From the NCBI GenBank assembly GCA_037951105.1, contig JBAMJV010001320.1:36001-100000 (forward strand): a DNA stretch of 64,000 nucleotides, in the 5' to 3' direction. This DNA comes from Echinarachnius parma. Its lineage: Eukaryota > Echinodermata > Echinoidea > Clypeasteroida > Echinarachniidae. Below are positions 2,812-60,329 of the stretch, one piece after another (the stretch's first letter is position 1; every line of letters begins with the position of its first letter). The notes under the pieces were generated by a model. It searched no databases. It saw only the letters and a program-made list of their open reading frames with translations, and had not been told where the DNA came from. Both the position numbers and the translations under genes were made by a program.

Positions 2812-2887
2812 ATGGTCAAAATGGAGCTTCTACGCACCAAGCTTCTTTCCAGTTTGGCACTAGCATTCATCTTCACCATTCAAACAT
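2812..2887 (+). CDS. Exon 1: signal peptide of CCP/Ig/FIMAC gene
   Basis: ATG at 2812 opens a 25-codon leader: a short basic start (MVKMELLRTK), a hydrophobic core (LLSSLALAFIFT), then IQT and a cysteine split over the splice. A second in-frame ATG lies at 2821. The donor at 2888 is a full consensus GTAAGT and leaves phase 1. This phase matches the acceptor at 4953, where the joined codon is Cys. The leader looks like a cleavable secretion signal, so the product should be secreted or on the cell surface. The 5' UTR cannot be delimited. Alternative: an unrelated short ORF, but the signal-like composition, consensus donor and phase match argue against that. Confidence 0.7.
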
Positions 2888-4952
2888 GTAAGTAGCTCTC
2901 ATGGATTTCCAACATGCACGTAGGCTATGCAGTAATATCGGGTGGCCACTTCGACATGTATGATTGTGTTATAATGTTAGTAACGGAAATATCAACAATA
3001 GTCAACCAAGTAGTTGTGAATTTGTATTAGTTGTATTACTTTATATTGGTGCATTACAATCTGATTCACCCAATTACCCCATTCACCCAAACTAATAGCA
3101 TTGGCGTAACGTGGTCGGATTGATCGGGAGATTATCGGGAGCATATTTTTTCTCAACGGGGTATAGTTCACTTTCGGTTTAGAGCGGCTTAACAAAACAA
3201 TGTTGTTGTGAGGTGTAACTGAAAGTGTCAACATTAAAAAGGCATAACAATTTTAAAGACGGAATCTTTGTTTTTATCAAATTATGTTCAGAAACAGCTA
3301 AAATATCCATTTAAAAAATCTGATCGAAATCAATGTTGGGAACAAACTTTTATTTATCAATGTAAGACAATTTTTATAAATTCTACATGTTTCTAACAAT
3401 ATACCACAATGTTTCATGATCGTTGCTCTGTGTATTGAATAGTAAGTTTTTGCAAACATCACATTTGCATATTTTAATTGTTAAAATAGTTCAGATTTGA
3501 GATGTCTGGAGGGCGCCTTCTTGTTTCAATAGCTGTTTTTTTAAAATTAAAACAGCCCGGAAAATGTATGTTATATATTTTTTTCTATTATTCAATCATC
3601 ATTGAATTGTAACTGTTATTTTAATGATACCTCACAAGTTACTGGCGATTCTGTCTGACCAAAACTGTACCTTTAACTTTGTAAAATATGTTCTCTTTGT
3701 GTTTTTATTGATTTCCGCAAACAAATCTCCCTCTCCATACCTACGGGATTAAGACTACATGTATTAGCTATAACTCAATAATTTACTCAGCGGTAATGAT
3801 ACTTCCTAATCCTGTTCTAAAAACTTGTTTATTGTTTTCAATTACGAAAAAAGGCTCATACACTTCAAAGCAACATTGTCCAAATCCTTAAAACTTACAT
3901 GGAACTCTAGTGTTTTTCTCATACCTTTTCATATTCATATTAAAAATACAAGCACGGGATAGGTTTCGGTTTTTCAAATTTCCATTTCGTTCAAAAGGTA
4001 TTTACGATTGAACTGTTCAGATATGAAATTGTCTACGGGATAATTTCATGCCGTGTACAAAGTAAGTACAATGAGTTAATAAATATCACTTTGCATTTTG
4101 CTCATATCTCAGCAAAACAAACCCAACTATAGCTTGAAATGTTCACACATTACTTTGTGGACATATCAAATCACTCCAATACACATTTTATTAATTACTC
4201 ATCACTTTTGGCAACAAAGTAACTACATCTCTTTTACTCGACACGCAGGGTTAAATAGGCAACTAGGATATGAAGAAATTCCCATTCGTTAAATTTGCAT
4301 GGAACGGTTTTCTAGAACATATCATTATATATAAGTCATTCAATGTAAATACAGCTCGTAATTTGAATAACCAGGAACAAAACATTAAAGCAAGCTCGTC
4401 GCCAAAAACCTTTAAAAGGGCACCGATATTATATTTACACATTTCACTCTTGTATAATGGTTAACCCTTTCAGGTTTGGTTCGGAACATACTCGGGCTTT
4501 GGGCTTTGAAAAAGACACGTTGTATCAAATCAGTCCGTCCTGAAATGAAATAGTCCTTGCTACCTTATGTTTTGTATTTGTATGGTCTATAATTCCTTTA
4601 TATGTTTAGTTGTGGAAAAAAAGTCATATATTTCAAACTTGTTTTAATAATTGCTGTATTCATTGACTTTAAATGTGCGATTTTATTAAGCGATACCGAC
4701 CTTTGTTTTGGGCTGGCTGTTTTTGTATTGTCAATAAACCTGAAATATGTTGCGTAGTGTGGTAGAACACAAACTATTGGGAAACACACACCTTATATAA
4801 TTCTTTTTGTATCAATGATTTCCCCTTATGTTGTATTTTTTTCTTCAAATTGTTCTTCTTTTTTTTTTTGGGGGGGGGGGGGGTGGGGGGCACACGAAGA
4901 ATAAAACGTATGCGACGTGTTATTTATGCCATTTTTGTTTTATTTATTCAAG
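2888..4952 (+). other. Intron 1
   Basis: AT-rich intron. Positions about 3868-4245 belong to a dispersed repeat family also present near 5475-5860 (inverted), 22150-22534 and 45508-45893. A poly-G run near 4871-4890 sits just before the next exon. Nothing else is recognisable. Confidence 0.5.
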
Positions 4953-5168
4953 GTACTGGAACGGTGTGTTTTGGTTCGTCGACCGAGCATGGTTTATACA
5001 GTGTGCACGGGCGTAGTAGCGTTGTGGAAAGACTTTGGACAACTGGCGCACAACATGGCGGCAGGGTTGACGTCAGCGTGAGAAACTGCCCCAGTGGTTT
5101 TTATGCCCAGCAGCCAACCAGAAGCCAGTGTGAGAACGGAACGTGGACACCACCCTGGCCAACGTGTG
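4953..5168 (+). CDS. Exon 2: first sushi/CCP domain
   Basis: The acceptor after the T-rich stretch ending at 4952 and the consensus donor GTAAGT at 5169 bound a 216-bp phase 1-1 exon. The encoded module ends with a typical CCP second half: NCPSGFYAQQP, a QC, then NGTWTPPWPTCG, giving the last three of the four CCP cysteines and the conserved Trp before the final Cys. The first half, with TVCFGSS, is less conserved. This copy is clearly diverged from the A-F array further right. It directly follows the signal peptide, so it is the N-terminal domain. The family role is protein-protein recognition; the ligand is unknown. Confidence 0.75.
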
Positions 5169-5474
5169 GTAAGTACTATTTTATTAGCTGTATGACGATT
5201 TTACTATGAATATGGATAACTGTATATTTTGTGTATAGTACTAGTGTGTAGTACTATTAATAATCATAGTACTAATGATACTTTTGCCGTTAGTTTAAAG
5301 TGCTAGTTGGATATGTGTATAACTCATTGCCAATGTCCTAACCTGCAAACACCACATTAATTAAAAGGGCACAGCTAGGTAAACTACTATTTGGGGATTG
5401 AAACGGAATCTACTGAAAGGCAAATTTTGCCACATGCTTGAAGATTGGGTGTGCACTGAACAATTATATAGAGC

Positions 5475-5860
5475 TACTTGGGATCAGTAACTTTGTTGAC
5501 AAGTGCAAACAGTGATGGCTGGTTAATACAATGTGTATTGGGCATGTCATTTGATATGTCAAGAAAGTATTGTGTGAACACTTCAAGTTAGTTGGATGTT
5601 ATTTGGCCCCAAAAATGAGCGAAAATGCAAAGTGATATTCAGTTTACTCATTGCACTTAATTAGTACACGGCAGGAAAGATCCCGTAGATAATTTCATAA
5701 TCGAACGCTTCAATCTAAATATCTTTTGAACAAAATAGAAATTTGAAAACCAAAACCTATCCTTGCTTTTATTGTTAATACATATAAAACACGGAAGGAA
5801 CAGCTAAAATGCCAATTGGATGTTGAGGATTTGGATAATGTTACTAAGTCCCTTCAAGTA
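5475..5860 (-). repeat. Dispersed MITE-like repeat, family R, inverted copy
   Basis: Reading the minus strand, the copy begins with a start like GGGACTTAGTAACATT and ends with a TCAACAAAGTTACT-type end. It is related to the copies near 3868-4245, 22150-22534 and 45508-45893. No coding capacity. Confidence 0.55.
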
Positions 5861-7526
5861 TACAATGCCACTGCACAATCACACAATACAATGGACATGG
5901 TCAATTACTCTATTACCATTGCGTGCGTACATAGACTTGGCATGTTAGGGTTAGCTTGATGAGGGATCAAAAGCAGCTGACCAAGAGTATGAATGAAGGA
6001 ATGTACTTCGTACTTGGCACTTTATGTGTTGAGAAAAATATTTCGTCGGAATTATTTGTAATAATCCCTTATTTTGGTCAGTGATGCAAGTATTCGATTC
6101 GTACTGATTGTTATTTGTCTAGATTGAGGTGATCAGAGTATACTTAGGCAAAATAAAGAGACAAAACGGATCTACCAGTGAAGTACACTACATTGGAAAG
6201 GCTACGGGTGCAGTCTAAAGCCTACACTACAGTTTGGTGTTCAACACAAATCAGAATTAAATCAAAGACAGAACTATACAAGGTGCTCATTCTGTCAATG
6301 TTACTATACAGAACTAAAATCTGCATTTACCCTCCAAATTGAAGACGCGTAGAGAAGACTCCTTTACATTTGAAATTTTGGCATGTACGCTTTTGCAAAT
6401 TGTACACTCAGTTTGTCATTATCTCACAAAAACATTTTGTATGCAGCGCCCTCTATACCAAAACTGAACTACCCCTTTAAATCAAGAGATCATCAACAAC
6501 ATTACTATTTGAAACCTCCTTTGTAATTTGTTGAAAAAGTGTATGCATTTTCTTCTGTTTTTCTTAAATAATCGAATAAATGTAGGATCCCACATTTGTT
6601 CTGATTGGATATATATATATCTTTTTATATTTCAGATGTTTCTGAACCGATTTTGATCATTCTGTCATACAAATTGTATGATAATTCACATTTGACATTC
6701 AGTCTATCATGACCCGAAACTGCACGAGTATCATCATATATGTATCTAAAGAGCAGAGCTTGTATTCAGCCCCTTAAAGGGACTTAGTATACATTTCAGT
6801 TCTTAAACCCCTACAGAGCAAATTAGGTAGATTGTGGTCCTCCTGGGTTACTACAAAAGGAAAAGGCAAAAAGGCAAAGTTGCTTAATACATTTGAAACA
6901 TTTGAATACATGCAGGGGCGAGTAGCTCCACTGATGACAACGTTGATTACCTAATTTATATCATGGATTCGTGCTACGTCACAGATAATGGGTATCATGA
7001 AATTGCCCAACGCTACCCCTCTCTCCCAAGATTGTACAGGGTTATTTAACGCCGACATGAACTAAAACATCAGTTCAATATAAAAGAAATTCAAGGTATA
7101 TTTGAAGGCGTATAGAAATCGGTAACAGAGCACCTGACCTATATATTTTTAACATAACTCAATGCTGCCTGAAATGTAACAAAATTGTGAGCATTTTGTA
7201 TTACATGTATTGTCTCCGAGCAATTTGTGACTGTGTTGCGCTCCTCAAGCTACCAGATGTATTGGTGTGATATACAATTTAGTTATATAGATTTGTTTAA
7301 GGTCTGGTGTGAAGAGTTGGCAGTATATGCCTTTGAAAAATAAATTACTCGTTAAAATGTTATTATTGAATATACTTTTCTTATTTCATAATCTTTATGC
7401 CTGTGATAGGTTTGGGTACAGTCTGTGATTAGATTGATGTAGCCAGGGGAAATGAGACAACATGGTCTGGAAAAAAGGGCATTTGCCAACATGCAGGTCT
7501 GACTGGACTAATAACATCAAACTAGT

Positions 7527-8867: not shown

Positions 8868-9113
8868 AGAGACCGCGTCACCCGTGCGGGGTCCCACTCA
8901 CTGCCTACTACACTAAAACTAACGGTGCTCAATACGTGCAGCAGTTCATCAATGGTTCTGCGGGGCGCGACATCAGTGACTACAACGGCGCCACTTTGCC
9001 CGACGGCACGTGGCTGGTGGCACGGTGCGAAGATCCGGTGAGGTACCGACTGGTCGGGGAGTCTAGGAGGCTATGCACAGAGGGGGAGTGGTCTGCTCCA
9101 GAACCTACCTGTG
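8868..9113 (+). CDS. CCP exon A (subtype 1)
   Basis: Phase 1-1 exon of 246 bp, acceptor CTCCCAG at 8867 and donor GTAATT at 9114. It begins ERPRHPCGVPL and carries the four CCP cysteines (HPC, VARC, RRLC, PTC), the Trp in GEWSAPEPTC and the sequon NGS in FINGSAG. It is 18 bases longer than the sister exons B, C and E, from an insertion in the first third (near YYTKTNGAQYVQ). The ERPRHPC start defines subtype 1, shared with exons C and E. It follows three decayed half-exon copies and is followed by a partial copy of the unit's palindrome near 9307-9372, but by no Ig half-exon. Confidence 0.88.
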
Positions 9114-10130: not shown

Positions 10131-10358
10131 AGAGACTACGGATCCCTTGCGATGTCCCGGTGACTCCTCCTCGAAGTCACGTGCTGCAGTTCATCAATGG
10201 TTCTACGGTGCGCGACATCAATGAATATGAAGGCGACATTTTGGCCGATGGCACGTGGTTGGTAGCACGGTGCGAAGATCCGGGGAGGTACCGACTGGTC
10301 GGGGAGTCTAGGAGGCTGTGCACAGCGGCGGAGTGGTCTGCTCCAGAACCTACCTGTG
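10131..10358 (+). CDS. CCP exon B (subtype 2)
   Basis: Phase 1-1 exon of 228 bp, acceptor TATTTAG at 10130 and donor GTATGT at 10359. It begins ERLRIPCDVPVTPP and has the four CCP cysteines, the DGTWLVARC motif and EWSAPEPTC. The acidic GEGE.. loop reads TAAEW here, unlike TEGEW in the sisters. The IPCDV start and the TPP segment group it with exons D and F (subtype 2). It carries the NGS sequon of FINGSTV. It is followed by the unit palindrome (10637-10717) and an intact Ig first-half exon, so this is one of two complete junctions from the CCP array into an Ig domain. Confidence 0.88.
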
Positions 10359-10895: not shown

Positions 10896-11080
10896 AACGT
10901 GTAAACACTTCCATCACTACCATTGGAATACCACACGTTGTAGCGAGCAACGGCACACTATTCATCTACCCACGGCCCTCTGAAGCACCAAATCAATATC
11001 AGTACATATCTTGCTATCTCGGGGGCGGAGTAGGAGGATCAGCGAATCTCACTGTGCCACAGAATGTCAGGAGCATTCCG
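10896..11080 (+). CDS. Ig-like domain 1, first-half exon
   Basis: Acceptor TTGTAG at 10895, donor GTAATC at 11081, 185 bp, phase 1 in and phase 0 out. It has no internal Met and so is easily missed. It reads through SITTIGIPHVVASNGT, then IYPRPSEAPNQ, YISCYLGGG and GSANLTVPQNV. The single Cys in YISC is the expected B-strand cysteine of an Ig fold, and NGT and NLT are N-glycosylation sequons. The exon has exactly the length and phase of the second intact copy at 32054-32238. The partner half with the F-strand cysteine is at 13472-13628. Assignment as Ig-like rests on the joined pattern C...W...YSC. Confidence 0.8.
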
Positions 11081-13471: not shown

Positions 13472-13628
13472 AAGAAGCAACATCGAGGTCGGAGTTGGCT
13501 TGGTCAGGGTCAAATAACTCGTGAGTACATCCTCTTAAGCCCGATTTTACCAGAACACTCTGGGAACTACTCATGCAGCACATCCAACATTACCACGCCC
13601 TCGCATACAGTGGAAATTATCATCAAAG
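13472..13628 (+). CDS. Ig-like domain 1, second-half exon
   Basis: Acceptor TCTGTAG at 13471, donor GTAGTA at 13629, 157 bp, phase 0 in and phase 1 out, exactly complementary to the 10896-11080 exon. It encodes SWLGQGQITREYILL, then PILPEHSGNYSCSTSN and HTVEIIIK. The W and the Y-x-C in NYSC fit the C-strand Trp and F-strand Cys of an Ig domain. It is the paralogue of 43045-43210, with which it shares ILPEHSGNYSCST and HTVEIIIK. It is nine bases shorter than that copy, in the loop after the F strand and near the start. An in-frame scan shows no stop. Confidence 0.82.
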
Positions 13629-17911: not shown

Positions 17912-18139
17912 AAAGACCACGTCACCCATGTGATGTCCTGCTCACTACATTTGGAAATCACGTGATGCAGTTCATCAATGGTTCTGCGGTGCGCAACATC
18001 AATGACTATGACGGCGCCACTTTGCTCGATGGCACGTGGCTGGTGGCACGGTGCGAAGATCCAGCGAGGTACCGATTGGTCGGGGAATCTAGGAGGCTAT
18101 GCATAGACGGGGAGTGGTCTTCTCCAGAACCTACCTGCG
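17912..18139 (+). CDS. CCP exon C (subtype 1)
   Basis: Phase 1-1 exon of 228 bp, acceptor TTATCAG at 17911 and donor GTAATT at 18140. It starts ERPRHPCDVLLTTFG (subtype 1, with A and E) and keeps all four CCP cysteines, the NGS sequon, DGTWLVARCEDP, and GEWSSPEPTC. One variant is a LLDGTW in place of LPDGTW. It is followed by the palindrome at 18194-18292 and a decayed Ig first-half exon at 19858. In the predicted transcript it follows the Ig second half at 13472-13628 in phase 1. Confidence 0.87.
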
Positions 18140-19857: not shown

Positions 19858-20020
19858 ACCATGTATCCACTACCGTTACTTCAACTGGCGTACCACACGT
19901 GAAAGCTAGCACAATATTCATCTACCCCCTGCCCTCTGAATCATCGGATCGATATCGAAAATATTATTATTATTATTGGGAGGATCAGCGAAACTCACGG
20001 TGCTATATACAGTGTACCGT
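19858..20020 (+). pseudogene. Decayed Ig first-half exon (unit C)
   Basis: Aligns to the intact Ig first-half exons (STTVTSTGVPHVKAS, then FIYPLPSE) with its acceptor TTTAG present. It lacks the six bases encoding NG before T, and the segment with the B-strand Cys has been replaced by an ATT microsatellite. The frame then shifts before the GGSAKLTV segment and no donor is kept. No second-half exon follows. Confidence 0.75.
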
Positions 20021-20389
20021 TTGTCCCAAACAAAATTACAATCGGAATCTCTGCAACGATAACTTTCCCTCCAGGTTGTCTAATATTGTGTTCACGCCTT
20101 ACAAATACAAAGTTGTTCATTATGTTCTCGCACAAAAATATCTTTTGAGAAGGTGAATGCTTGTTTCCTTGCATTTTCAACTAAATTAAATCATTAACTC
20201 ATGGAAGACTTGATTTAAGCTCTCTTCTTTCATGGCTTACTCTTATCTTTTTTTTCTGAGAGATTAATACATATTTCAACAACAAAACCTCACACGAGTA
20301 CACACCATTGATATAAAGGTATGCACAGGATTTGAATTAATTTGTTAGTTGCCCTGACAATTGTGAGCAGAATATTCTCCCATTTTGTT

Positions 20390-20705
20390 TTCCATACGGA
20401 TCATAAAGCCAGGGATGTCCAACCGACTCCGTTTGAAGGTCGCATGATAGAGCTCATCAACGGCTCTACGCGGTGGGTGATATCGAAGAATATTTCGGCC
20501 CCACTTTTCCCGATATGACACATGCCAAGGTCTCATCATTTTACCATTCTATTACACTGACCACAACAATATATTTGTATTTCTCTTCCAAGAGAAAGCA
20601 CGGAACCCATCCGATGTCTCATTAACTACATTAGGAAGTCACGAGCTGTCAGCTCTTCAACGGATCTGCATTTACTATGACAGCGCCTCTTTGCCCGATT
20701 ACACG
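20390..20705 (+). pseudogene. Truncated CCP half-exons (beta, gamma) upstream of CCP exon D
   Basis: Beta at about 20390-20515 (GGATCATAAAGCCAGGGATG) and gamma at about 20594-20705 (AGAAAGCACGGAACCCATCC). Both lack the second CCP half. The same pair, with few differences, lies upstream of exon F at 28870-29175. Confidence 0.72.
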
Positions 20706-20787: not shown

Positions 20788-21012
20788 ATGCACGGATCCC
20801 TTGCGATGTCCAAGTGACTCCTCCTGGAAGTCACGTGCTGCATTTCATCAATGGTTCTGCGGTGCGCGACGTCAATGATTACGAAGGCGCCATTTTGCCC
20901 GATGGCACGTGGCTGGTGGCACGGTGCGATGATCCGGGGAGGTACCGACTGGTCGGGGAGTCTAGGAGGCTATGCACAGAGGGGGAGTGGTCTTCTCCAG
21001 AACCTACCTGTG
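20788..21012 (+). CDS. CCP exon D (subtype 2)
   Basis: Phase 1-1 exon of 225 bp, acceptor TTTTCAG at 20787 and donor GTAATT at 21013. It starts DARIPCDVQVTPPGS (subtype 2), with four CCP cysteines, NGS sequon, DGTWLVARCDDP and GEWSSPEPTC. It differs from exon F at only a few codons, for example NDYEGAIL against SDYEESIL and SS against SA near the end. The near-identity with F is explained by the segmental duplication, in which flanking introns are also shared. Confidence 0.88.
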
Positions 21013-21138
21013 GTAATTATTAGAGAATGTTCATGCATTTGATTTGCTGCATTGTATCGTAAGTATTTGGGTCTGGAGTAACTTATGATAAAAGCCCGAA
21101 TTCTCATCAGTAGCACAACTAATTAGTCCGGGCTAAAA

Positions 21139-22130
21139 TATACTCCGCACAATAAGAAACAGGACACTCATTTAAGACAATATATCTCATATTTTTTAAC
21201 GATAAAATATATGTTATTGTATATCAAATTAAAGATAAAACTACCCTCTTCGATATTAGCATAGAATCCAGGAGAAATCATTCATGCATGACTTGTCACG
21301 GTCAATTAACCACCGCAAGGTCTGTTTTCAAAAATAGCAAAAATTGAACATCCATTCAACCATTTAAATGTTGACAAGCATGATATAAACGCTATATTCA
21401 TGACATGGCATAATTATTTAATTACAAATGTGATCATTTTTAGTTTCATCTCAATAGAAAAAGTGTAAATGAAGACAAATTGTGAACGTTGTAGGTTTTA
21501 TTTTTATCCAAATGTAACACAGTGGGGAATTCCATGGCTACGGTTTATTCGTCGAAACTACAGTTTATTGTGCCCTTATTTCAGCATGAATCTTGGTATA
21601 AATTATTCTCAAGAATTCTACCGTAGTCCAAAGATCTTCAAAATCTGATGTCACCCTTGGTCAGCCATTTGGGCAGTCTCTAACATATCACTTCTCTCGG
21701 TAAATATGGTTGAAATTACAAGGGACACATGAAACAAACAAGCTTTGTGCCTCAAAAACAGACCAATGTGTTGATGTTCTCATAACTTGGCCCTGTTTTA
21801 TTGGAAAATGTGTATTTTTGGAGTTTGTTCATGACAATAAGGTTGAATGGTGTCATAAAAGACTTGCCCCGCACATCTTGTTTCAAGCAAGACGCTTACT
21901 CATTGAAGTCGAATGGTGCGGTCATCCATTGTTTTTGCTATTTTTGACCTTGCTATTGTTAATTGATCATGGCATTTCCTGCACGAACGATTACATTTTT
22001 AATTTATATTCTGCCTGTAGATGACTAAATTTCCTTTAATTTGATATATGATAATGTACACTCTGTCGTACATAAATATTAAATAATTCAACTTAAACAA
22101 ATGTCCTGTTTCTTTTTTTTGCGGAATATA
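21139..22130. mobile_element. TIR element, TACTCCGC family (copy in unit D)
   Basis: Begins TATACTCCGCACAATAAG with AAACAGGACAC and ends GTCCTGTTTC...GCGGAATATA. TA repeats at the ends suggest a Tc1/mariner-type TA target. The interior forms long imperfect arms (CATGCATGACTTGTCACGGT near 21284 and its complement near 21965) and has no transposase. The orthologous copy at 29618-30615 predates the segmental duplication. Confidence 0.8.
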
Positions 22131-22617: not shown

Positions 22618-23354
22618 GGTTACAGTCCGTTATTCCGAAGGTTCGTTATTCCGAAGGTTCGTTATTCCGAAGGTTCGTTATTCCGAAGGTTCGTTATTCC
22701 GAAGGTTCGTTATTCCGAAGGTTCATTATTCCGAAGGTTCGTTATTCCGAAGGTTCGTTGATCCGAAAATAAAATCGGGTTCGTTATTCCGAAGGTTCGT
22801 TATTTCTAAGGTTCGTTATTCCGAAGGTTCGTTGATCCGAAAATAAAATCGGGTTCGTTATTCCGAAAATTAAATCGGGCTTGTTATAATACTATAGTTT
22901 GTGTTTTGTTTATTTAATTTACAGCCTGCATTAAGCATACCCCTCCCCCTTTCCCTCCCTTGGCCAGACCAATCAAACATTTAAGTTCATTTATCTCTTT
23001 ATATGAAATTATAGCATTATAACAAACCTAAATTCATTTTCGGATTAACGAACCCGATTTCATTTTAGGAATAGCGAACCTTCGGAATAACGAACCCTCG
23101 GAATAACGGACCTTCGGAATAACGAACCTTCGGAATAACGAACCCGATTTCATTTTAGGAATAGCGAACCTTCGGAATAACGAACCTTCGGAATAACGAA
23201 CCTTCGGAATAATGCAACAAATGTTCGGATTAACGAACCCTATTTCATTTTCGGATTAACGAACACTCAGGTATAGGAAATTTGCGTGTTCGGAATAACG
23301 AACCTTCGGAATAACGAACCTTCGGAATAACGAACCTTCGGAATAACGAACCGC
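22618..23354. repeat. Inverted minisatellite: GTTCGTTATTCCGAAG arms
   Basis: About ten direct copies of a 16-bp unit (GTTCGTTATTCCGAAG) occupy 22625-22880, and a similar number of complementary copies occupy 23035-23354. A non-repetitive AT-rich centre separates them. Variants carry GATCCGAAAATAAAATCGGG. The duplicate locus near 30718 lacks the whole block. Confidence 0.9.
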
Positions 23355-23850: not shown

Positions 23851-24030
23851 ACCATGTATCCACTACCGTTACTTCAACTGGCGTACCACACGTGAAAGCT
23901 AGCACAATATTCATCTACCCCCTGCCCTCTGAATCATCGGATCGATATCGAAAATATTATTATTATTATTGGGAGGATCAGCGAAACTCACGGTGCTACA
24001 GTGTACCGTTTGTCCCAAACAAAATTACAA
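23851..24030 (+). pseudogene. Decayed Ig first-half exon (unit D)
   Basis: Carries the same defects as the copy at 19858: loss of the NG codons, an ATT microsatellite in place of the cysteine segment, and frame loss. The two copies with their downstream 300-400 bp are a duplication. No donor or partner exon follows. Confidence 0.75.
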
Positions 24031-27269: not shown

Positions 27270-27497
27270 AGAGACCACGTCACCCGTGTGATGTCCCGCT
27301 CACTACATTTGGGAGTTACGTGCTGCAGTTCATCAATGGTTCTGCGGTGCGTGGCATCAGTGACTATAACGAGGAAACTTTGCCTGATGGCACGTGGCTG
27401 GTTGCACGGTGCGATGACCCGGGAAGGTACCGACTGGTCGGGGAGTCTAGAAGGCTATGCACAGAGGGGGAGTGGTCTGCTCCAGACCCTATCTGTG
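27270..27497 (+). CDS. CCP exon E (subtype 1)
   Basis: Phase 1-1 exon of 228 bp, acceptor TCCACAG at 27269 and donor GTAATT at 27498. It starts ERPRHPCDVPLTTFGS (subtype 1). It has the four CCP cysteines, NGS sequon, DGTWLVARCDDP and GEWSAPDPICG, where the last loop has PIC in place of PTC. It also has NEETL in place of the usual acidic DGATL loop. It is followed by the best-preserved unit palindrome and a decayed Ig first-half exon. All CCP framework positions are kept, so it is likely functional. Confidence 0.87.
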
Positions 27498-28342: not shown

Positions 28343-28520
28343 ACCATGTATCCACCACCGTTGCTTCAACTGGCGTACCACACGTGAAAGCTAGCAATGG
28401 CACAATATTCATCTACCCCCGGCCCTCTGACATGTCTGAAGCATCGGATCGATATTAGTGCATCAGTATGCCAACCCGAGGGTAGATTCGGAGGATCAGC
28501 GAAACTCACGGTGCCACAGT
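28343..28520 (+). pseudogene. Decayed Ig first-half exon (unit E)
   Basis: Keeps the acceptor and STTVASTGVPHVKASNGT plus FIYPRPS, closer to the intact copies than the 19858 and 23851 copies. It ends in a stop (GATATTAG, near 28453-28458) before the cysteine segment. Its AKLTV segment runs straight into a CCP alpha fragment (CGCCAACGGATTTGC), so the donor is gone. Confidence 0.78.
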
Positions 28521-28524: not shown

Positions 28525-29180
28525 ATATTTCGCCAACGGATTTGCAAAGAAATCAATATAATTTTTCATAACAAAGAATTGTTTTCATAACAAAGATTTG
28601 GTATCTACCAAATGCAAATTCATGTCCGTCAGAAGAACTATTTAATCTCATCTCTCCGTGCCGATTTATTTTTCTCAGAACATGCAGAAATAGCACTGAA
28701 CCGTTGTAATGTTCCATGGATTTAGTTTGAAAGTTTATGTGCTACATTTTGTCAATGGATCAGCAAAGAAATCATTATAAAATAAGGGTCAAATATTTTG
28801 TTTGTATAAATAACTCAACCTTCTACCTATAAATATGACGATTTTATATCAACTCTCCCATTTTGTTTTCCATACGGATCATAAAGCCAGGGATGTCCAA
28901 CCGACTCCGTTTGAAGGTCGCATGATAGAGCTCATCAACGGCTCTACGCGGTGGGTGATATCGAAGAATATTTCGGCCCCACTTTTCCCGATATGACACA
29001 TGCCAAGGTCTCATCATTTTACCATTCTATTACACTGACCACAACAATACATTTGTATTTCTCTTCCAAGAGAGAGCACGGAACCCATCCGATGTCTCAT
29101 TAACTACATTAGGAAGTCACGAGCTGTCAGCTCTTCAACGGATCTGCATTTAATATGACAGCGCCTCTTTGCCCGATTAC
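28525..29180 (+). pseudogene. Truncated CCP half-exons (alpha, beta, gamma) upstream of CCP exon F
   Basis: Alpha pieces at about 28525-28560 and 28678-28780 (AACATGCAGAAATAGCACTG), beta at about 28870-28990 and gamma at about 29072-29180. Beta and gamma are near copies of those upstream of exon D. Confidence 0.72.
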
Positions 29181-29265: not shown

Positions 29266-29490
29266 ATGCACGGATCCCTTGCGATGTCCAAGTGACTCCT
29301 CCTGGAAGTCACGTGCTGCATTTCATCAATGGTTCTGCGGTGCGCGACGTCAGTGATTACGAAGAATCCATTTTGCCCGATGGCACGTGGCTGGTGGCAC
29401 GGTGCGATGATCCGGGGAGGTACCGACTGGTCGGGGAGTCTAGGAGGCTATGCACAGAGGGGGAGTGGTCTGCGCCAGAACCTACCTGTG
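29266..29490 (+). CDS. CCP exon F (subtype 2)
   Basis: Phase 1-1 exon of 225 bp, acceptor TTTTCAG at 29265 and donor GTAATT at 29491. It starts DARIPCDVQVTPPGS and carries the four CCP cysteines, the sequon in FINGSAV, and GEWSAPEPTCG. It is nearly identical to exon D and lies in the same duplicated block. In the predicted transcript it is the last A-F type CCP and is spliced in phase 1 to the intact Ig first-half exon at 32054. Confidence 0.88.
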
Positions 29491-29617
29491 GTAATTATTG
29501 GAAGAATGTTCATGCATTGTATTTGTTGCATTGTATCGTAAGTATTTGGGTCTGGAGTAACTTATGATAAAAGTCCGAATTCTCATCAGTAGCACAACTA
29601 ATTAGTCCGGGCTAAAA

Positions 29618-30615
29618 TATACTCCGCACAAAAAGAAACAGGACACTTATTTAAGACAACATATCTCATATTTTTTAACGATAAAATATATGTTATCGTA
29701 TATCAAATTAAAGATAAAACTACCCTCTTCGATATTAGCATAGAATCCAGGAAAAATCATTCATGCATGACTTGTCACGGTCAATTAACCACCGCAAGGT
29801 CTGTTTTCAAAAATAGCAAGAATGGAACATCCATTCAACCATTTAAATGTTGACAAGCATGATATAAACGCTATATTCATGACAAGGCATAATTATTTAA
29901 TTACAAATGTGATCTTTTTTAGTTTCATCTCAATAGAAAAAGTGTAAATGAAGACATATTGTGAACGTTGTAGGTTTTATTTTTATCTAAATGTAACACA
30001 GTGGGGAATTCTATGGCTACGGTTTATTCGTCGAAACTACAGTTTATTGTGCCGTTATTTCAGCATGAAACTTGGTATAAATTCTTCTCAAGAATTCTAC
30101 CGTAGTCCAAAGATCTTCAAAATCTGATGTCACCCTTGGTCAACCATTTGGGCAGTCTCTAACATGTCACTTCTCTCTGTAAATATGGTTGAAATTGCAA
30201 GAGACACATGAAACAAACAAGCTTTGTGCCTCAAAAACAGACCAATATGTTGATGTTCTCATAACTTGGCCCTGTTTTATTGGAAAATGTGTATTTTTGG
30301 AGTTTGTTCATGACAATAAGGTTGAATGGTGTCATAAAAGACTTGCCCCGCACATCTTGTTTCAAGCAAGACGCTTACTCATTGAAGTCGAATGGTGCGG
30401 TCATCCATTGTTTTGGCTATTTTTGAAAACAGACCTTACTATTGTTAATTGATCATGGCATTTTCTGCACGAACGATTACATTTTTAATTTATATTCTGC
30501 CAGTAGATAACTAAATTTCCTTTAATTTGATATATGATAATGTACACTCTGTCGTACATAAATATTAAATAATTCACCTTAAACAAGTGTCCTGTTTCTT
30601 TTTTTGTGGAGTATA
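29618..30615. mobile_element. TIR element, TACTCCGC family (copy in unit F)
   Basis: Starts TATACTCCGCACAAAAAGAA and ends TTTTTGTGGAGTATA. It corresponds base for base, with few differences, to the 21139-22130 element. Non-coding. Confidence 0.8.
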
Positions 30616-32053: not shown

Positions 32054-32238
32054 TCAGTGTATCTACTACCATTACTTACGATGGCGTACCACACGTATTA
32101 GCGAGCAATGGCACAATAATCATCTACCCACGGCCCCGGCACGCAGCACTTCGGCATCAGACAATCACATGTGAACTTGGGAGTGACATACGAGGATCAG
32201 CGAAACTTACAGTGCCACATAATGTTAGCCATGTCAGG
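32054..32238 (+). CDS. Ig-like domain 2, first-half exon
   Basis: Acceptor CTTGTAG at 32053, donor GTAATT at 32239, 185 bp, phase 1 in and phase 0 out, the same length and phases as 10896-11080. It encodes STTITYDGVPHVLASNGT, then IIYPRPRHAALRHQ, TITCELGSD and GSAKLTVPHNVSHVR. The Cys in TITC is the B-strand cysteine, and NGT and NVS are sequons. It is the only intact copy among the four Ig first-half exons lying downstream of exon C. Its partner is 43045-43210, 10.8 kb away. Family assignment is Ig-like; the subtype is not resolved. Confidence 0.85.
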
Positions 32239-39748: not shown

Positions 39749-40408
39749 TTATTTATTATTGTGCTTCTCTGATGCTTTCTTCAGGTTTTCTCTTGCAGAA
39801 TGAACTTTGTCATCTGCGGCAGCTTCAACTATGTTCCTTTTCTTCTTCTTGGGGAGCATTTCGACTGCAATTTCTCTATTGGCAGTGATTAAGGTGTTGT
39901 ATACCGCTGTAGTGGTTTTATCTTCTAGTTCATCACGGAGGGAACAGAATCTGTTATGAACAGCTACAGTAAATTGCTGAGAGAGGTTGGGATCCCTCAC
40001 AACCCTTCCCCAATCTATACTCTTCATCGGTACTTTGGGTGGGAGCTTGGTTTTCCGGTAGCTGATCTGGCATCTACAGGAGACAATGCGATGATCTGAC
40101 TGAATACCTTCAAAGTAGTTGTAAGATCTGGAGTTCTTAACAGAGTTGATCCATTTCTTCCTTAGGCCTACCAGTATGTAGTCAAGTTGGACAAGGTGAC
40201 CAGTTGGACGGCGATGGGTCCAAAGTCTGTTCTTGCAGTGCTGAAACCTTGTGTTGGTGGCAATAAGGTTGTGTTGCTCCATGAAGTCTATCATGTACCT
40301 TCCATTTCTGTTGGTTTCATCTGCACATGTAAATAGTGCCTCCGTAGGTCCTAGTTGGGCATTAAGATCTGCCCCTATAATTAGTAAATTATGAGCAGGA
40401 AAACTCAA
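39749..40408 (-). mobile_element. LINE apurinic-type endonuclease domain fragment
   Basis: An open minus-strand frame of 219 residues. It carries hallmarks of the APE-like endonuclease of non-LTR retrotransposons: LIIGADLNAQLG near the start, TH.RPTGHLVQLDYILVG in the middle, and IQSDHRIV, the catalytic S-D-H, about residue 110. Then comes the linker SIDWGRVVRDPN with a basic tail PKKKKRN. It starts abruptly after a solo MITE end (actatccctttaa at about 40406) and stops before any RT domain. The type is RTE/jockey-like; the clade cannot be fixed here. It lies antisense in the long intron between Ig exons. Confidence 0.88.
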
Positions 40409-43044: not shown

Positions 43045-43210
43045 AAGCAGACAGAGGCTACTTGGCGATGGGTCTGGGGCAATTGGAGACAAATCACAAG
43101 TGAGTCCATCCTCGTTGACCCGATCCTACCAGAACACTCGGGGAACTATTCATGCAGCACAACCAACTCCAGTGATGAGCGCTCGCACACAGTGGAGATT
43201 ATCATCAAAG
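43045..43210 (+). CDS. Ig-like domain 2, second-half exon
   Basis: Acceptor CCCTGCAG at 43044, donor GTAGTA at 43211, 166 bp, phase 0 in and phase 1 out. It encodes KQTEATWRWVWGNWRQI, then ILPEHSGNYSCSTTNSSDE and HTVEIIIK. The Trp cluster and the NYSC motif match the C and F strands of an Ig domain, pairing with the B-strand Cys in exon 32054-32238. NYS and NSS are sequons. It is the paralogue of 13472-13628. The next compatible exon is the CCP at 54706 (phase 1). Confidence 0.87.
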
Positions 43211-49469: not shown

Positions 49470-50400
49470 TATTCTTGTGTGCGCCCTAACTGTCATATTC
49501 CTTGACGGATTTCTTTCAAATTTTGTATGGAGCTGTATCTTGGTATAATCTAGACACCAACCAGTTTTGTTGATGCTGCCCCTAGTGTTCCGTCTTTTAT
49601 AGTGTAAAAGGCCATATTTTTGTGGATGGTTTGTGTGCGCTCTATAGGTCACATTTCTCAAAGGATTTTGTTCAAATTTTCAATGAAGGTGTATCTTGAT
49701 ATAATCTACAAGCCTATATATTTTGGTGATGCTGCCTCCAGTGTTCCGTCTTTTATAGGGTCAAAGGTCATACTTTGATGAATGTCTTGTGTGCATTATC
49801 GTGTGCGGTCTAACTGCCATCTACACACCTTTAATTGTTGGTGATGCTGCCCCCGGTGTTTCGTCCTTTATAGGGTCAAAGATCGTTTGTCTTTTGTGCG
49901 CTCTTACTGCCACATTTCTTGACAGATTTCTTTCAAATTTTGTATGGAGGTGTATCTTTCTAAAATCAACACATCTTTAGTGTGTGGTGATGCTGCCACC
50001 CATCTTCCATCTTTTATAGTGTAAAAGGTCATTGTCTGGTGGGTGTCTATATAGTGTGCGCTCTGCAGGTCATATTTCCTGACAGATTTCTTTCAAATTT
50101 TGTATGGAAATATATCTTGGTACAATCTTCAAATTTATATTTATTGATGTTGCTGCCCTCGTTGTTTCGTCCTTTATAGTGTCAAAGGTCATATGTAAGT
50201 TGTGCGATCTAACTGCCCAATTTCTTCATGGATTTCTTTCAGATTTTGTTTGGAGGTGTGTCTTAGTAAAATCTACACATTGTAAGTGTTTGGTGATGAT
50301 GTCACCTGTGTTCCGTCTGTTATAAGGTCAAAGGTCATATTTTGGTGGCTGTCTTGTGTGCCCTCAGCAGGCTCTGCAGGTCACATTTCTTGACAGATTT
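49470..50400 (+). repeat. Tandem repeat of about 150-165 bp containing AAAGGTCA
   Basis: Six to seven units start with a GTGTGCGCTCTAACTG-like word, then TTTCTTTCAAATTTTGTATG, GGTGATGCTGCC, TTCCGTCTTTTATAG and GTCAAAGGTCAT. Frames through the units give similar short peptides (FLSNFVWRC), but units vary in length and stops recur. Confidence 0.75.
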
Positions 50401-53048: not shown

Positions 53049-53069
53049 TGAAATTTATAAACAAAGAAG

Positions 53070-54690: not shown

Positions 54691-54705
54691 ACATTCATGT
54701 TGTAG

Positions 54706-54897
54706 ATATCACATGCCCAACCCCCGTACACCCGGCTAATGGAATCTTCATTGACCGGCAACACCCGTGGATCAAGGGACACTGGACGGTCTCCAAGAGG
54801 ATTCATTTCGAATGCAATGCTGGCTTTCGCCTGGTCGGGGCTTCACAGGTTGACTGTACGGTCGATGGCTGGTCAAAGTCCAATCCGACGTGTACCC
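54706..54897 (+). CDS. CCP domain 8 exon
   Basis: Acceptor TGTTGTAG at 54705 and consensus donor GTAAGT at 54898 bound a 192-bp phase 1-1 exon. It encodes a textbook sushi domain: ITCPTPVHPANG, then HFECNAGFRLVGAS, VDCTVDGWSKSNPTC, with four cysteines, the hydrophobic F.C..GF.L.G core and the Trp before the last Cys. It is not close to the A-F array and more like complement control protein modules in general. It follows the second Ig domain after an 11.5-kb intron. Confidence 0.9.
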
Positions 54898-55966
54898 GTA
54901 AGTAAAGAGTTAAAGGAGTATCATTGTCTGGTTGAAATGGCGCCTCAATAATTTCTTTTTGTTTGGATAGCAGAAAACTGAGTGCAATTACTGGTATTGA
55001 TTATATATGATTTTCATAGCAAAACAAACATATTTTGGTCGTTATCTAATATCAATCTATACAAGTGAAATGCTTACACATTAGTTATTGTAATATTGCT
55101 CATCCTTTTTTATATGAACAGTTTACTGAATTGGTATCAGAGAATGTTGTGTATGTGGTTCTGAAAGAAACTTTCATGTCACACCCGTACGAGTATTGGT
55201 AAAATTATACACAGTACAATATATTATTCCATGTGTCCGAATCATCATTATGTGTTAAAGGGACTGTCCCTCTTTTACAAAACGTCTGAACAGTTTCCAG
55301 TTGACGGATGGGGATGAATGTAACACACACAAAAATCAGATCGAACAGCCCTGTAATTTGGATTATACGGATAAAAAACGAATGCGTCCCTCCATCAAAC
55401 TATATATCGGTCAATAAAAGAGTTTAACTGATTTAGCATAATATTACAACAATATTGTACTTATTCTTATAAAGGTATTGTGAAGCCGACATTTGTAAAG
55501 GTATGTCACGGAAAAAATCTCAAAAATGAAGAATATGTAATTACATGTAGTCAGATTAAGCGATGTTTGGTTATTTTGTTTAATATTCGGTCATGCTATT
55601 ATTATGTGTGTGCGGGTCACGTAGCTAGCGCGGGTCACGTAGGGGTCACGCAAAACGTTGTGGTACTTCGTGGAATCCGTGTACGAACTTCCTCACTGGG
55701 TGAATACACGTAAATGCACAATTAACCGTTGGTTGTCGTTTTATTAGTTTTAGGTCTATAACTGCACGAAAAAGATATTTCAAGCCCTAATTTGTTCAAG
55801 CATGCTATTAAATGACATTTTCTTTCATATAAGACAATAACCTCGCAACTTGGATTAAACATTTCTGTATGTAAATCATTAGAGCATAATTATATTATAG
55901 ATGTATTACATGAATAATAATGTCTCACACTTGTACATTTTTCTCACTGCTACCGGCTATATAAAG
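54898..55966 (+). other. Intron between CCP 8 and CCP 9
   Basis: AT-rich, with no repeat I can name and no exon. A short GTCACGTAG-type duplication lies near 55617-55650 (CGGGTCACGTAG twice). Confidence 0.45.
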
Positions 55967-56158
55967 CAACCCAATGCCGCGAGATAAGCACACCCGATAA
56001 TGCCCGGATGGTCGGTGTCTATGGCTACGGGAGGAACATCGGTGACGAACGAGCATTCTACTGCAATCCCGGGTACATGCGAAATGGCTCTACCAACCTA
56101 CTGCGGTGCAACGAAGGAGGCGAGTGGTCGGCCCCGGTGCCTACATGCGAACGGCTAC
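55967..56158 (+). CDS. CCP domain 9 exon
   Basis: The acceptor ATATAAAG at 55966 has a weak pyrimidine tract just before it, with better pyrimidines further up. The donor GTAAGT at 56159 is consensus. 192 bp, phase 1-1, the same length as the previous CCP exon. It encodes TQCREISTPDNARMVGV, then DERAFYCNPGYMRNGSTNLL, RCNEGGEWSAPVPTC, with all four cysteines and the GEW motif. NGS is a sequon. It lies directly before the FIMAC exons, the same CCP-CCP-FIMAC order as the C-terminus of C6 and C7. Confidence 0.87.
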
Positions 56159-56956
56159 GTAAGTATCTGAAGGCAAACCTTAAAACTCACGAACGAACCC
56201 GAAAACTTCCATATTATTTTACTAAAAGAAAGGATTTATTCCTCTAAGAGTCTAGTATTTAAACAAAGATTATACGTAAATTGATTCGTAAAACGCTCAA
56301 CGTCTCCGGTTCCCGATGCATAAGAACCCGGAAATGATCGTAACATGACCGAAATGTCACGATAACGCCTGATGCTGGGTAACGAAGTTTGCGAAAACAG
56401 TCGAAGTGCCGGATTTACAAAAGGAACTTTAAAAAGGCCAAATGTTGCAATCGAATTAGTTATTAGCAAACACTATTAACTATTAATGAATGTAAAATAA
56501 TCTCTATATTAATGTATATCTCCTATCTTTGTGGCGTCTAAATCCATAATGCGCTCCTTAAAAGGAACGTTTAGACGAATTCAAGTTGAAGTCTAGGTCA
56601 CTAAACACAATTTTGTATGAAAAAGTATGATTGTGGGTTCTTATAATTGGTTTTGAAATTCTAATGACACGAATTCGCGAGCGAGCTCAATCTCCCACAA
56701 TCTTTTGATCGGACCAATACAATTCTCGAATCTCGATCATGAATAGTTTAGTCCTCGCAGCGCCACTTTATTTATTTGATGTAGTCTAATGACAATTTCG
56801 ACGTTCTCATGATTCTACAACTGTATCATGTGTATGTTATCTCATCATGTATACCATGTATACGGTATCACTCTTGCCTACGGGACCGGAACTGGGTCCT
56901 GTACTATAGCTCTATTAGGATCATTGTAACATCTAGTAGGCTTGGTCAGTAGCTTA

Positions 56957-57467
56957 GATACACTGTTAATACGCTGTGTAAACAACATTTGTTGACAATT
57001 TTCTACAACCGCTGTTTAACATATGAACCATCCAAGTCTTGTTGCAAACATTCAAGTTGTTCCAGTTGTTCCAGTTGTTTAAAGTTTACACAACTGTTGG
57101 TTTAATTTTTATACAACCGTTGTTTAGAATAAATTTTAAACAAACCTGTTGTTGAAATAGCAAATACAAAAAATGATTGTACTATAAAATGGCAAAGTCG
57201 GAATCGAACCGGGGACCTTTGGGTTATGAGACTCACACGCTACCTCATCGCTATCTCGTTTCGCTTGGTTTGCAGTGGGACAAAAAGGGTTTTGTCGCGA
57301 TGATTTCGCGGTCGAAACAATCACGTGATTTAACACGTTTAATCAACGCTTGAACAATGGCCGCATTACACAACCCTTCTTTCTACAACTAATCATGCTA
57401 CACCTAAGGTTGTATAAAAAGATTCAACAACTATTTTTACACAGCGTTTCAACAGTGTACAATCTGC
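56957..57467. mobile_element. TIR element enclosing a tRNA-Met-like sequence
   Basis: ACACTGTTAATACGCTGTGT with AAACAAC at the left pairs with TTTTTACACAGCGTTTCAAC and AGTGT at 57440-57464; TA borders are likely. GTTGTTCCAGTTG-type words and AACAACC/GGTTGT pairs continue inward. Confidence 0.65.
57187..57262 (-). tRNA. tRNA-Met(CAT)-like pseudogene or SINE head
   Basis: The minus strand has TAGCGATGAGGTAGCGTG (A-box and D-arm like), a loop CTCATAA giving a CAU anticodon, and GGTTCGATTCC (perfect B box). The acceptor arms do not pair (AACGAGA against TTTGCCA) and the T stem has two mismatches, so it is probably not a functional tRNA. It may be a SINE head or a tRNA pseudogene. Confidence 0.55.
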
Positions 57468-57754
57468 GCTAAATCCACTCTCCATAAAAATTGAGTTAAC
57501 GCTATAACATTATATTCAGTAACAAAATCGACATGTACGAAGTTTGCTAGAAATCCAAAATTTCGGCCAAATTACGTAGCTAAAAAGCAAAATATGGAGC
57601 GTTCCATTTTCATATTTCCACAGCCATATGTATACCAATGCGAACAGATATAAAACCCTTTTCTCCAAGGTTGAACAAGTGGATTTATCGGCTTTTAGAA
57701 TGCAATCTCTGTACTGATGAAATTAAAATAAATTGTATCGATTTGAATTTTCAG

Positions 57755-57888
57755 ACCAGATTGCCACACTATGCATGCGTGGTGATGAATGCCAGTCGTG
57801 GGAAAAATGCGTCATCACAGACCCGGATGCAAACCTGTACGATTGCTTTTGCATCAACCCGTTCCAGTGCCGCACGACCGGCCCTCAG
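57755..57888 (+). CDS. FIMAC module, first-half exon
   Basis: Acceptor TTTTCAG at 57754, donor GTATTT at 57889, 134 bp, phase 1 in and phase 0 out. It encodes QIATLCMRGDECQSWEKC, then YDCFCINPFQCRTTGPQ. The spacing C-x5-C-x2-W-x2-C and then C-x-C-x4-C matches the follistatin-like head of the FIMAC module of factor I and C6/C7 (pattern C.PW..C and C.C..P..C). The Kazal-like half is in the next exon. The expected fold is disulphide-rich, extracellular. Confidence 0.85.
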
Positions 57889-60217
57889 GTATTTATTTTC
57901 CATATACAAAAATAATGGGACAGCCCTTACCTAGTGGCCTATCAGGGGGGGGGGGGGGGGGGGCGCACGAGGTACGGGGTTTAATTCCCCCCCCCCCCCC
58001 TTAACAAAATTGGTTTAAAAAATAACACATACAAAATTAATGAAATAAAAATAATGAATATAGAAAAATAATGTACCATCTGTGAAAAATAAAGAATTGT
58101 GTGCCCCTCCCCCATGGTACGCCACTGCCCTATTCAAAACCATCGTGTGATCTCGTAATCAGGATGTTCATGGGTTCGATCATCACCCATGTCAACTTGT
58201 TATGTATTGCCTTTGGTTCACAGCGAGTCAAGCTTGCATTGAACATCCATTGTTAAAACAAATAGGTCAGTGTATCAGGTTCAAATCCAGATTCATTATT
58301 ATTATAAAATGTATTTGATTGGATTTATTTAGAACAGGTTTATTAAATATCTTGTTTTCTAGATCCAGCAATAAACACGCGTATAGTCAGTCGGTCTATT
58401 ACAGTATTATAAATCAACTATTAAAGGCTGAATCAACCAAACTGAGAAAGTAAACAACATAATTGTGCGGGTCTGAAATGTACCAAAAGACCAGGCAGGA
58501 TAATAATATTGAAAGCGCCTATAGAGTGGTGAAGTGTGATGTCATCAATGATGTCATAAACATCTTTTTTAGAATTTTCAAATTTGGACTTCATTTTCAG
58601 AAAGAGCATAACAAATAATGTCCAAATACCGAAAGTCAATTGAATAGGTGAGTATTGGCTGAGATATGCCCATCCGAATAATTTGTTTTGTCAATGGGCA
58701 ATCAGTGTTATAGTGCACTGGTTCATAACTTTATGAACCAGTGCACTATAACACTGATTGCCCATTGAAGTAAAATTCATTCGGATGGGCATATCTCAGC
58801 TAATACGTAATATATTCAATTGATTTTTGGTATTTGGACACTATTATTGATGTTCTTACTGAAAATGGAGTTCAAATTTTAAAATTCGAAAAAAATGTGT
58901 TTATGACGTCATGGCTTCTGTACTCTATAGAAGCTGCTCTGCATTAGGCGCTATACAAATTAGTTTTTTTTTATAAACCCCTCTAAAAAAGTTCCGCAAT
59001 TAACTTTTAGCGTAATGGTTATATAAGTATGGAATGTGCTTACATCTGGGTCCGGAAGAGGGGAGGGGGGGGGGGGGGGGGGGTGGGGTGTTACATAAAG
59101 AGTTGCGATTAAACGCAAGTCAGTAAACACGTCGCGCTCTTGAGCCAATCAGATTTGCGCATTATGTGCATTTTCTGACTTGCGATTAATCGCACCTCTT
59201 GATGCAAAACCTCCAGTCATGATTGAAATGTTGCAAAATGCATGGTTATTGTGTATTCGCTGGTATCATTGATTTAAAACAGTCCATCTCCAATCAAAAT
59301 GGAAAATGCAAATTGACAATCAACGCTGATTTAAATGGATAGGTCAGTTTTGGTATAGAGGGCATTTCAAGAAATACTTGTTTAAGGTAATGACAAATTT
59401 AGTGTATTAACAGATATCAAGTCTATATTATGAAATATAAGTATATCGCATTGGTATACATGTGTGGGACCAACAAGATACATTGTACATGTTGTAGATA
59501 TACGGCAAATCTATTGCAATTGCGTATGAAAGGCGTCCACCACACACAGAACAACATTATGGTTATTTGTTTGGTACCGTTGTTTGATACATGTATTAGT
59601 AAGATGGCCAACACTGCGCAAAGGGTTCTGAAAATCGTAAATAATGTAATATCAAAACCCACAGAAACAATAGGGCCGATGGTTGTGTAAGCGCCAAACG
59701 TTTGCGAGTTTGTCAATTATATGCACGCGTACGTTTGGAGACAATAGCATCACAGAATTCTCGTACGTCTTAGACGATGGAATAGTTACCGTCTGGAGAC
59801 CCAGGAACACTTAATATGGTGATGAGTTTTGAAAGTATATAAATTGCCTGGAAACCTTTTTTCAGAACTTGCTGGTGAAATGGACTACTAAAACTATTAT
59901 CTTTTATATATGAACTGTAGAGTGATTGTGACCGACGATGATGTTCATATCACTTTTGAAAGCCGTACGTTTTATTGAGCTAAACTGCTCTGGACAAAGC
60001 AAAATTACATAATACTTTGTTTTAGGGAACATCAAATAATGTTCCCTCGGGATTATAACTGCTAATTCGTGAAGACAATTTATCCCTCGACTATACGTTT
60101 CGTGACTTAGAATATTTACTCAATATTATTTAAAATCTCTGGAAGAGAAACATTCTGTGATATTCCCCCAACCACCAGTTGACATAATGTAAAATAAATT
60201 TAATTTGTTTAAACCAG
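57889..60217 (+). other. Intron within FIMAC module
   Basis: Contains poly-G/poly-C runs at about 57946-57963 and 57988-57999, the hairpin element around 58661, and a poly-G run near 59065-59082. The rest is AT-rich, with a left end of the AGGGATAG-type MITE family (GGTCAGTTTTGGTATAGAGG) near 59341. Confidence 0.5.
58470..58935. mobile_element. Foldback element containing the second large hairpin
   Basis: The outer arms (GATGTCATAAACATCTTTTT, TTTCAAATTTGGACTTCATT) are mirrored at 58855-58910 around the central hairpin at 58661-58797 (GAGATATGCCCATCCGAAT arms, GTGCACTGGTTCATAA / TTATGAACCAGTGCAC). It shares that hairpin and the AAAGAGCATAA word with 12490-12700. Confidence 0.8.
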
Positions 60218-60329
60218 GTGTGCGGGACGGATGGGAGGAACTACACCAGTGAATGCTTCCTCAAGGCTCTAGCATGTATTCTAGACACTGATGTTGACAT
60301 CGCACCTGACCCAGACGCATGCCTTCTCG
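60218..60329 (+). CDS. FIMAC module, Kazal-like second-half exon
   Basis: Acceptor AAACCAG at 60217, donor GTTAGC at 60330 (weaker than GTAAGT), 112 bp, phase 0 in and phase 1 out. It encodes VCGTDGRNYTSECFLKALAC and ends APDPDACLLG. VCGTDGR.Y.SEC...AC is the classical Kazal signature. With the previous exon it makes ten cysteines, as in FIMAC. NYT is a sequon. The phase 1 exit shows that further exons lie to the right. Kazal folds often inhibit serine proteases, but the FIMAC copies in complement bind partner proteins instead; which applies here is open. Confidence 0.87.

Follow-up and report, generated by a model that had tools for sequence, protein, structure and literature searches.

Can a single echinoderm gene join immunoglobulin-like (Ig) and complement control protein (CCP) domains to a C-terminal FIMAC module, and what would such a protein do? 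The question is raised by a 64,000-nucleotide stretch of the Echinarachnius parma genome (positions 36001-100000 of the 193-kb contig C1319; hereafter the window). A sequence-only reading had proposed that it holds a possibly undescribed complement-like mosaic gene whose sixteen exons encode a signal peptide, three CCPs, an Ig, four CCPs, a second Ig, two CCPs and a FIMAC. Comparison with the rest of the genome alters this picture: the predicted gene is one member of a clustered echinoderm multigene family that combines Ig, CCP and FIMAC domains. Judged from the sequences of its relatives, the basic form of the family has four CCPs and one Ig; within the tandem array, the window gene is both larger than this and chimeric.

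Exon boundaries were set by locating the domain reading frames in the raw window and bounding them by AG acceptors and GT donors. All sixteen exons were recovered on the + strand between positions 2812 and 60329, in the domain order given above, with AG and GT intact and phases matching at all 15 junctions; the joined frame was open, as had been claimed, and its rebuilt length was 989 codons rather than about 998. The CCP exons are 1-1 in phase, each two-exon Ig is 1-0 then 0-1, and the FIMAC is 1-0 then 0. Because phase partly guided the choice of splice sites, this agreement is weak evidence by itself. Independent support comes from two other copies, gene D on the same contig and a copy on contig C5717, which show AG/GT and the same phases at the corresponding junctions, the one difference being a FIMAC acceptor that in both is placed slightly further out, by a few residues, than in the window. 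The substitutions among copies, which are constrained in the CCPβ, CCPγ and type-1 Ig exons, provide additional independent support.

The genome searched comprises 1.2 Gb in 14,790 contigs. Its mitochondrial genes follow the echinoderm genetic code: the COX1 frame contains 14 TGA and 2 TGG codons, its four AGA codons and the ATA codons displayed (14 of 18) stand mostly at Ser and Ile positions, respectively, and the only AAA codon within the gene specifies the second Asn of FPRMNN. A large ribosomal RNA immediately precedes COX1 on the same strand, and frames resembling ND4L and COX2 come after it; this order and the COX1 and COX2 sequences fit a sea urchin. A CCPγ-CCPδ-FIMAC query gave at least 58 matches (150 of 234 candidates scored) and an Ig query gave 24 (34 of 34 scored). 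Among the matches scored were ten full-length CCPγ exons at ≥68% identity, three of them on C1319 (in the window, at 148 kb and at 178 kb); the other seven lie singly on C5717, C14127, C5703, C13291, C9030, C7651 and C12252. Nine of the ten are preceded on the same strand by both Ig exons, at a distance of 0.6-11.5 kb; for the tenth, on C12252, no Ig was found and the contig ends 2.4 kb away. Three further CCPγ matches, truncated to 57 residues (70%), lack an Ig match within 10 kb. Relative to the window model, nothing is missing from gene D (C1319:162481-182489), which encodes signal peptide-CCPα-CCPβ-Ig-CCPγ-CCPδ-FIMAC in about 492 residues. The C5717 copy (121794-144446) has all parts from CCPα to FIMAC, and a scan restricted to open frames and donors revealed no signal peptide in the 9.8 kb before its CCPα. 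The full order, with the same junction phases, is found in the window gene and gene D, and in the C5717 copy except for the signal peptide. Exon 1 of the window gene resembles the start of gene D (C1319:162481-162556) and C1319:107621 (91% over 22 residues), and gave a weak 13-residue match to C1319:192088 (E 0.038). The domain order thus recurs and is more than a product of splice-site choice. Some contigs may represent alternative haplotypes rather than separate gene copies, the equal-scoring matches at C1319:120378 and C9030:13154 being an example of a possible pair.

The domain assignments were upheld by Pfam profiles. On the joined window protein, Sushi scored E 2.1e-37, with eight stretches passing singly as against nine CCPs in the model, Ig_2 scored E 1.9e-9 (two stretches), Kazal_CFAI E 1.1e-7 and Kazal_2 E 5.1e-7. 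Scored alone, Ig 2 passes the 'ig' cut-off (29.1 versus 21.8 bits) and Ig 1 falls short (Ig_2, 19.5 versus 27; ig, 17 versus 21.8); Ig 1 is called an Ig because it is homologous to Ig 2. The last two exons encode ten cysteines, the number found in FIMAC modules, and the best Pfam fit to this region is Kazal_CFAI at 36.4 bits (cut-off 27.7), ahead of Kazal_2 (33.1) and Kazal_1 (22.2). Among single-copy matches to solved structures, factor I (9b3h) came narrowly first with 24.1 bits, in an alignment that spans the WxKC of the FIMAC first half through the Kazal half. Agrin and follistatin came top by total structure score because their repeats sum; their best single repeats among the five alignments shown scored 18.6 and 19.1 bits, respectively. 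The FIMAC label therefore stands, with a small residual chance that the region is in fact a follistatin or agrin module.

No described protein with this order was found, as had been anticipated. Protein searches covered about 5.8 billion proteins and were limited in length and to candidates with shared exact words, so that absence from them is not proof. The full window model gave 20 matches among the best 7995 candidates scored, all with Sushi domains at identities of 22-32% and none a near relative; the FIMAC region alone gave three candidates, none at E 0.01 or better, and a search with the family alignment gave eight matches among 3384 candidates, again without a near relative. An Ig-CCP-FIMAC protein was likewise not described in the literature searched, among the entries listed and at the level of titles and abstract openings.

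Constraint was estimated for the CCP and Ig exons and the first FIMAC exon as the pooled ratio of non-synonymous to synonymous differences (pN/pS) with a codon bootstrap. The figures are rough, because set membership differs between exons, pairs are non-independent and the alignment of the second Ig half covers its alignable part only. The ratio was 0.52 for CCPβ (0.35-0.76, 13 exons), 0.55 for CCPγ (0.35-0.80, 10 exons), 0.46 for CCPδ (0.22-0.99, seven exons), and 0.56 (0.35-0.93) and 0.34 (0.19-0.60) for the first and second halves of type-1 Ig (six exons each). Values of pN, rough for the same reasons, were lowest in CCPδ (0.057) and the FIMAC first half (0.062) and higher, at 0.084-0.148, in CCPα, CCPβ, CCPγ and Ig.

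Table 1. Exons of the window gene and decayed exon copies lying among them (window positions).
Feature	Position	Strand	Remarks
Exon 1, signal peptide	2812..2887	+	by inspection (MVKMELLRTKLLSSLALAFIFTIQT); phase 1 out
Exon 2, CCPα (CCP1)	4953..5168	+	Sushi 22.2 bits, cut-off 20.7
Exon 3, CCPβ (CCP2)	8868..9113	+	
Exon 4, CCPβ (CCP3)	10131..10358	+	
Exon 5, Ig 1 first half	10896..11065	+	type-1 lineage
Exon 6, Ig 1 second half	13472..13628	+	
Exon 7, CCPβ (CCP4)	17912..18139	+	
Decayed Ig first-half exon copy	19863..19958	+	contig 55863-55958
Exon 8, CCPβ (CCP5)	20788..21012	+	near-copy of exon 10
Decayed Ig first-half exon copy	23856..24008	+	
Exon 9, CCPβ (CCP6)	27270..27497	+	alone Sushi 20.0 bits, just below cut-off 20.7
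Decayed Ig first-half exon copy	28348..28519	+	stop and frame break
Exon 10, CCPβ (CCP7)	29266..29490	+	
Exon 11, Ig 2 first half	32054..32223	+	type-2 lineage
Exon 12, Ig 2 second half	43045..43210	+	
Exon 13, CCPγ (CCP8)	54706..54897	+	
Exon 14, CCPδ (CCP9)	55967..56158	+	
Exon 15, FIMAC first half	57755..57888	+	
Exon 16, Kazal half of FIMAC	60218..60329	+	followed by a phase-1 donor (G|GTTAGC) or immediately by an in-frame TAG

How the window gene departs from the basic form is visible in its exons (Table 1). It has six CCPβ exons (3, 4 and 7-10), of which exons 8 and 10 are near-copies with 95% amino-acid identity, whose flanks (20376-20675 and 21024-21323 versus 28854-29153 and 29503-29802) are 97-99% identical. 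Interspersed with the intact CCPβ exons are remnants of additional ones, as well as three decayed copies of the Ig first-half exon. Trees were built with FastTree and IQ-TREE from the nucleotide sequences of both Ig halves of ten copies. They split into two lineages, type 1 and type 2 (support 1.000 and 100, respectively). Ig 1 of the window groups with C7651 in type 1 (0.988/97), and Ig 2 falls in type 2 together with C5717, the C1319 copy at 144 kb and C14127; the window CCPγ groups with C5717 and C14127 (0.981/99). The front of the window gene is thus like one kind of family member and its back like another, which we read as the outcome of fusion or unequal exchange.

What would such proteins do? 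The explanation that we favour, at a probability of roughly 0.5, is that the family encodes secreted, complement-linked recognition or regulatory proteins that would act without cutting the opsonin, no protease part having been seen. The basic protein consists of signal peptide, CCPα, CCPβ, one two-exon Ig, CCPγ, CCPδ and FIMAC, and is predicted to be secreted into the coelomic fluid. Its CCPβ-Ig arm is a putative binder of a microbial or host surface ligand. Vertebrate C7 and factor I, which bear FIMAC modules, dock on C3/C5-type thioester proteins, and by analogy the CCP-CCP-FIMAC end may dock on a protein of this type; the whole would then steer or limit opsonin deposition without proteolysis. 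In the window gene, the CCPβ and Ig exons were copied in blocks and three Ig half-exons decayed; its front, with a type-1 Ig, is joined to a back with a type-2 Ig. It is a sensible hypothesis that these proteins belong to a new immune class. A more ambitious proposal, which we regard as possible but doubtful, is that this is a lineage-expanded family in which the CCPβ-Ig arm is rebuilt by exon-block copying and Ig-lineage fusion and the slower CCPδ-FIMAC end couples it to a complement opsonin, giving an antibody-like variable arm and constant end by exon shuffling.

Several observations weigh against a complement-linked family of this form. Transcript and protein are predicted from genomic DNA. 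Not all copies have the full order: C13291 has CCPδ, but its 26-kb contig gave no match to FIMAC, C7651 shows neither a CCPδ nor a FIMAC match among the matches scored, and in the C1319 copy at 144-149 kb CCPγ is followed by CCPβ. In gene B (C1319:107621-120494), next in the array, only a signal peptide, a truncated CCPγ in inverted orientation and the FIMAC halves were seen, the first half being cut short; the gene looks rearranged. Constraint is not significant in CCPα (pN/pS 0.76, 0.42-1.63, four exons), the FIMAC first half (0.48, 0.19-1.45, five exons), or the first (1.35, 0.72-3.16) and second (0.63, 0.30-1.63) halves of type-2 Ig (four exons each). No claim of positive selection is made for the type-2 first half, in view of its interval. 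Finally, follistatin-related protein 1 (23.5 bits) and 7kbu (23.4), also single-stretch matches, nearly equal the factor I score, and matrix proteins such as agrin also carry FIMAC-like modules, agrin itself being described as containing FIMAC (extract of PMC10381214).

The strongest rival, which we nevertheless consider unlikely, concerns the window copy: it would be a broken chimera, in which assembly or recombination has placed a type-1 5' part beside a type-2 3' part that share no single message. The family would then be real and its 989-codon member no working gene. The different lineages of Ig 1 and Ig 2, with CCPγ following type 2, fit this account, as do the decayed exons interspersed with intact ones, the incompleteness of several other copies, a window donor after FIMAC unlike that of five other copies, and the type-2 Ig lineage without significant constraint. 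However, sixteen open exons with intact AG/GT and agreeing phases would be unlikely for two dead halves, and the window sequence between the halves yielded neither a second signal peptide nor a CCPα match that was convincing, as expected if the second half is read from the first.

A less probable alternative is that the protein belongs to the matrix or the synaptic cleft, with a function like that of Drosophila Hikaru genki (Hig) and no immune role. Hig also combines Ig and CCP domains (extract of PMC9083331); FIMAC/Kazal modules are found in agrin, and the scores of agrin and follistatin-type proteins against the FIMAC region are close to that of factor I. Against this, no FIMAC belongs to Hig as described in the same extract, and Kazal_CFAI outscores Kazal_2 and Kazal_1 on the window FIMAC. 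The block copying of exons and the tandem multigene turnover also count against it. Such turnover is commoner in immune than in synaptic genes.

Less probable again is that the window gene is what represents the sea urchin Sp5/Sp5013 mosaics in this genome, with Ig domains overlooked or added. These proteins are also from echinoderms, and the CCP-FIMAC pairing is common to both. No near relative was returned by the protein searches, however, and the same genome holds a second FIMAC family that may be a better Sp5-type candidate. Its members on C2496 and C12412 comprise two CCPs and a single-exon FIMAC (by eye, in 8 kb read of each) and had no match to the Ig of the window family in the genome Ig search; matching FIMAC exons lie on C2943 (165080 and 26168). 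FIMAC identity between the two families is 55-59%. The second family may be the counterpart of Sp5/Sp5013. As the CCP-CCP-FIMAC ending occurs there without this Ig, its distribution in these sequences suggests that the ending is an older module. A further account, in which CCP/Ig exons and CCP/FIMAC exons of two separate genes have been wrongly joined, is ruled out in general by relatives that repeat the whole order, and is kept as a rival for the window copy alone.

Returning to the complement-linked reading, we consider where the protein ends. After the last FIMAC residues the window reads GGTTAGC, giving either a donor G|GTTAGC or an in-frame TAG right after 60329. The other five of the six copies compared (gene B, gene D and C5717, and C2496 and C12412 of the second family) have GGTAAGC here, which makes a good phase-1 donor; therefore the window gene, too, is likely to have a further, last exon downstream of exon 16. 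Exon 16 may instead be terminal with TAG as its stop, a possibility against which the donor kept in the five other copies counts. The next signal peptide lies 11.3 kb downstream of the window gene (C1319:107621). The idea that factor I parts might follow was borne out neither for LDLa nor for trypsin or a second Kazal: these patterns, and those of CCP and Ig, were not seen in the 11.3 kb, in a scan by regular expressions rather than profiles whose scope did not extend to SRCR or a membrane anchor. In the matching stretch after gene D, one CCP pattern was found in a 32-residue frame, probably by chance.

A block lying 1.6 kb upstream of three signal-peptide sites was considered as a terminal exon and rejected, since its copies align with many gaps around a 39-base identical core; it is more likely non-coding. 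The core is identical at about 105990, 160879 and 190432 of C1319, all intergenic, with flanks less alike. The signal-peptide sites at 107621, 162481 and 192088, of which the third is a partial match only, follow it at a distance of 1602-1656 bases. It contains TTTCCGGAA, which we take to resemble ETS/STAT sites. With up to nine substitutions allowed, it was absent from the window and from the sequence read upstream of the window gene.

Other features were observed in passing. A further Kazal_CFAI match lies at C899:13955-14053, on a contig outside the CCPγ-CCPδ-FIMAC and Ig match lists, and perhaps marks a true factor I or C6/C7-type gene. In the window, long open frames on the minus strand at 39752-40408 and 60759-61436 resemble the endonuclease and reverse-transcriptase ends of LINE-type elements; neither gave a Pfam match at E 0.01. 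Positions 22628-22841, 23039-23352 and 49474-50354 hold two 16-base tandem repeat stretches with a 90-base higher-order form and a roughly 156-base array.

If the complement-linked reading is correct, the family would represent a separate invertebrate route joining Ig recognition to complement. The window would also be a tractable case of gene remodelling by exon copying, with intact, duplicated and decaying exons in one 64-kb stretch. Its position among known systems can be set out as follows. Complement regulators are strings of CCPs, and C6 and C7 are MACPF proteins ending in CCP and FIMAC. The window gene shares its CCP strings with factor H and the regulators of complement activation, for which we know of no Ig or FIMAC. 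Sea urchin Sp5/Sp5013 (Multerer and Smith 2004) are reportedly mosaics whose domains are those of factor H, factor I, C6 and C7; they are alike in being echinoderm mosaic proteins, to our knowledge they lack Ig domains, and neither was among the results of our protein searches. Drosophila Hig, a protein of the synaptic cleft, has one Ig-like and five CCP domains (extract of PMC9083331); the window gene has nine CCPs with two Ig domains, and gene D four CCPs with one.

In factor I, FIMAC comes first and is followed by SRCR, LDLR domains and a protease (extract of PMC9127439). The window FIMAC is like that of factor I in passing the Kazal_CFAI cut-off and in its narrowly best single-copy structure match, and differs in ending the model, with no LDLa or trypsin pattern before the next gene; the Pfam scan of the joined exons returned no SRCR. 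Amphioxus has a TSP1-FIMAC protein, and the C-terminus of vertebrate C6 and C7 is formed by CCP and FIMAC (extract of PMC11312191). The likeness to C6 and C7 noted in the sequence-only reading is real, the window gene having a CCP-CCP-FIMAC C-terminus, with a further exon after FIMAC possible. In place of the MACPF, TSP1, LDLa and EGF domains that C6 and C7 carry, none of which was returned by the Pfam scan of the joined window protein, the window gene has Ig domains.

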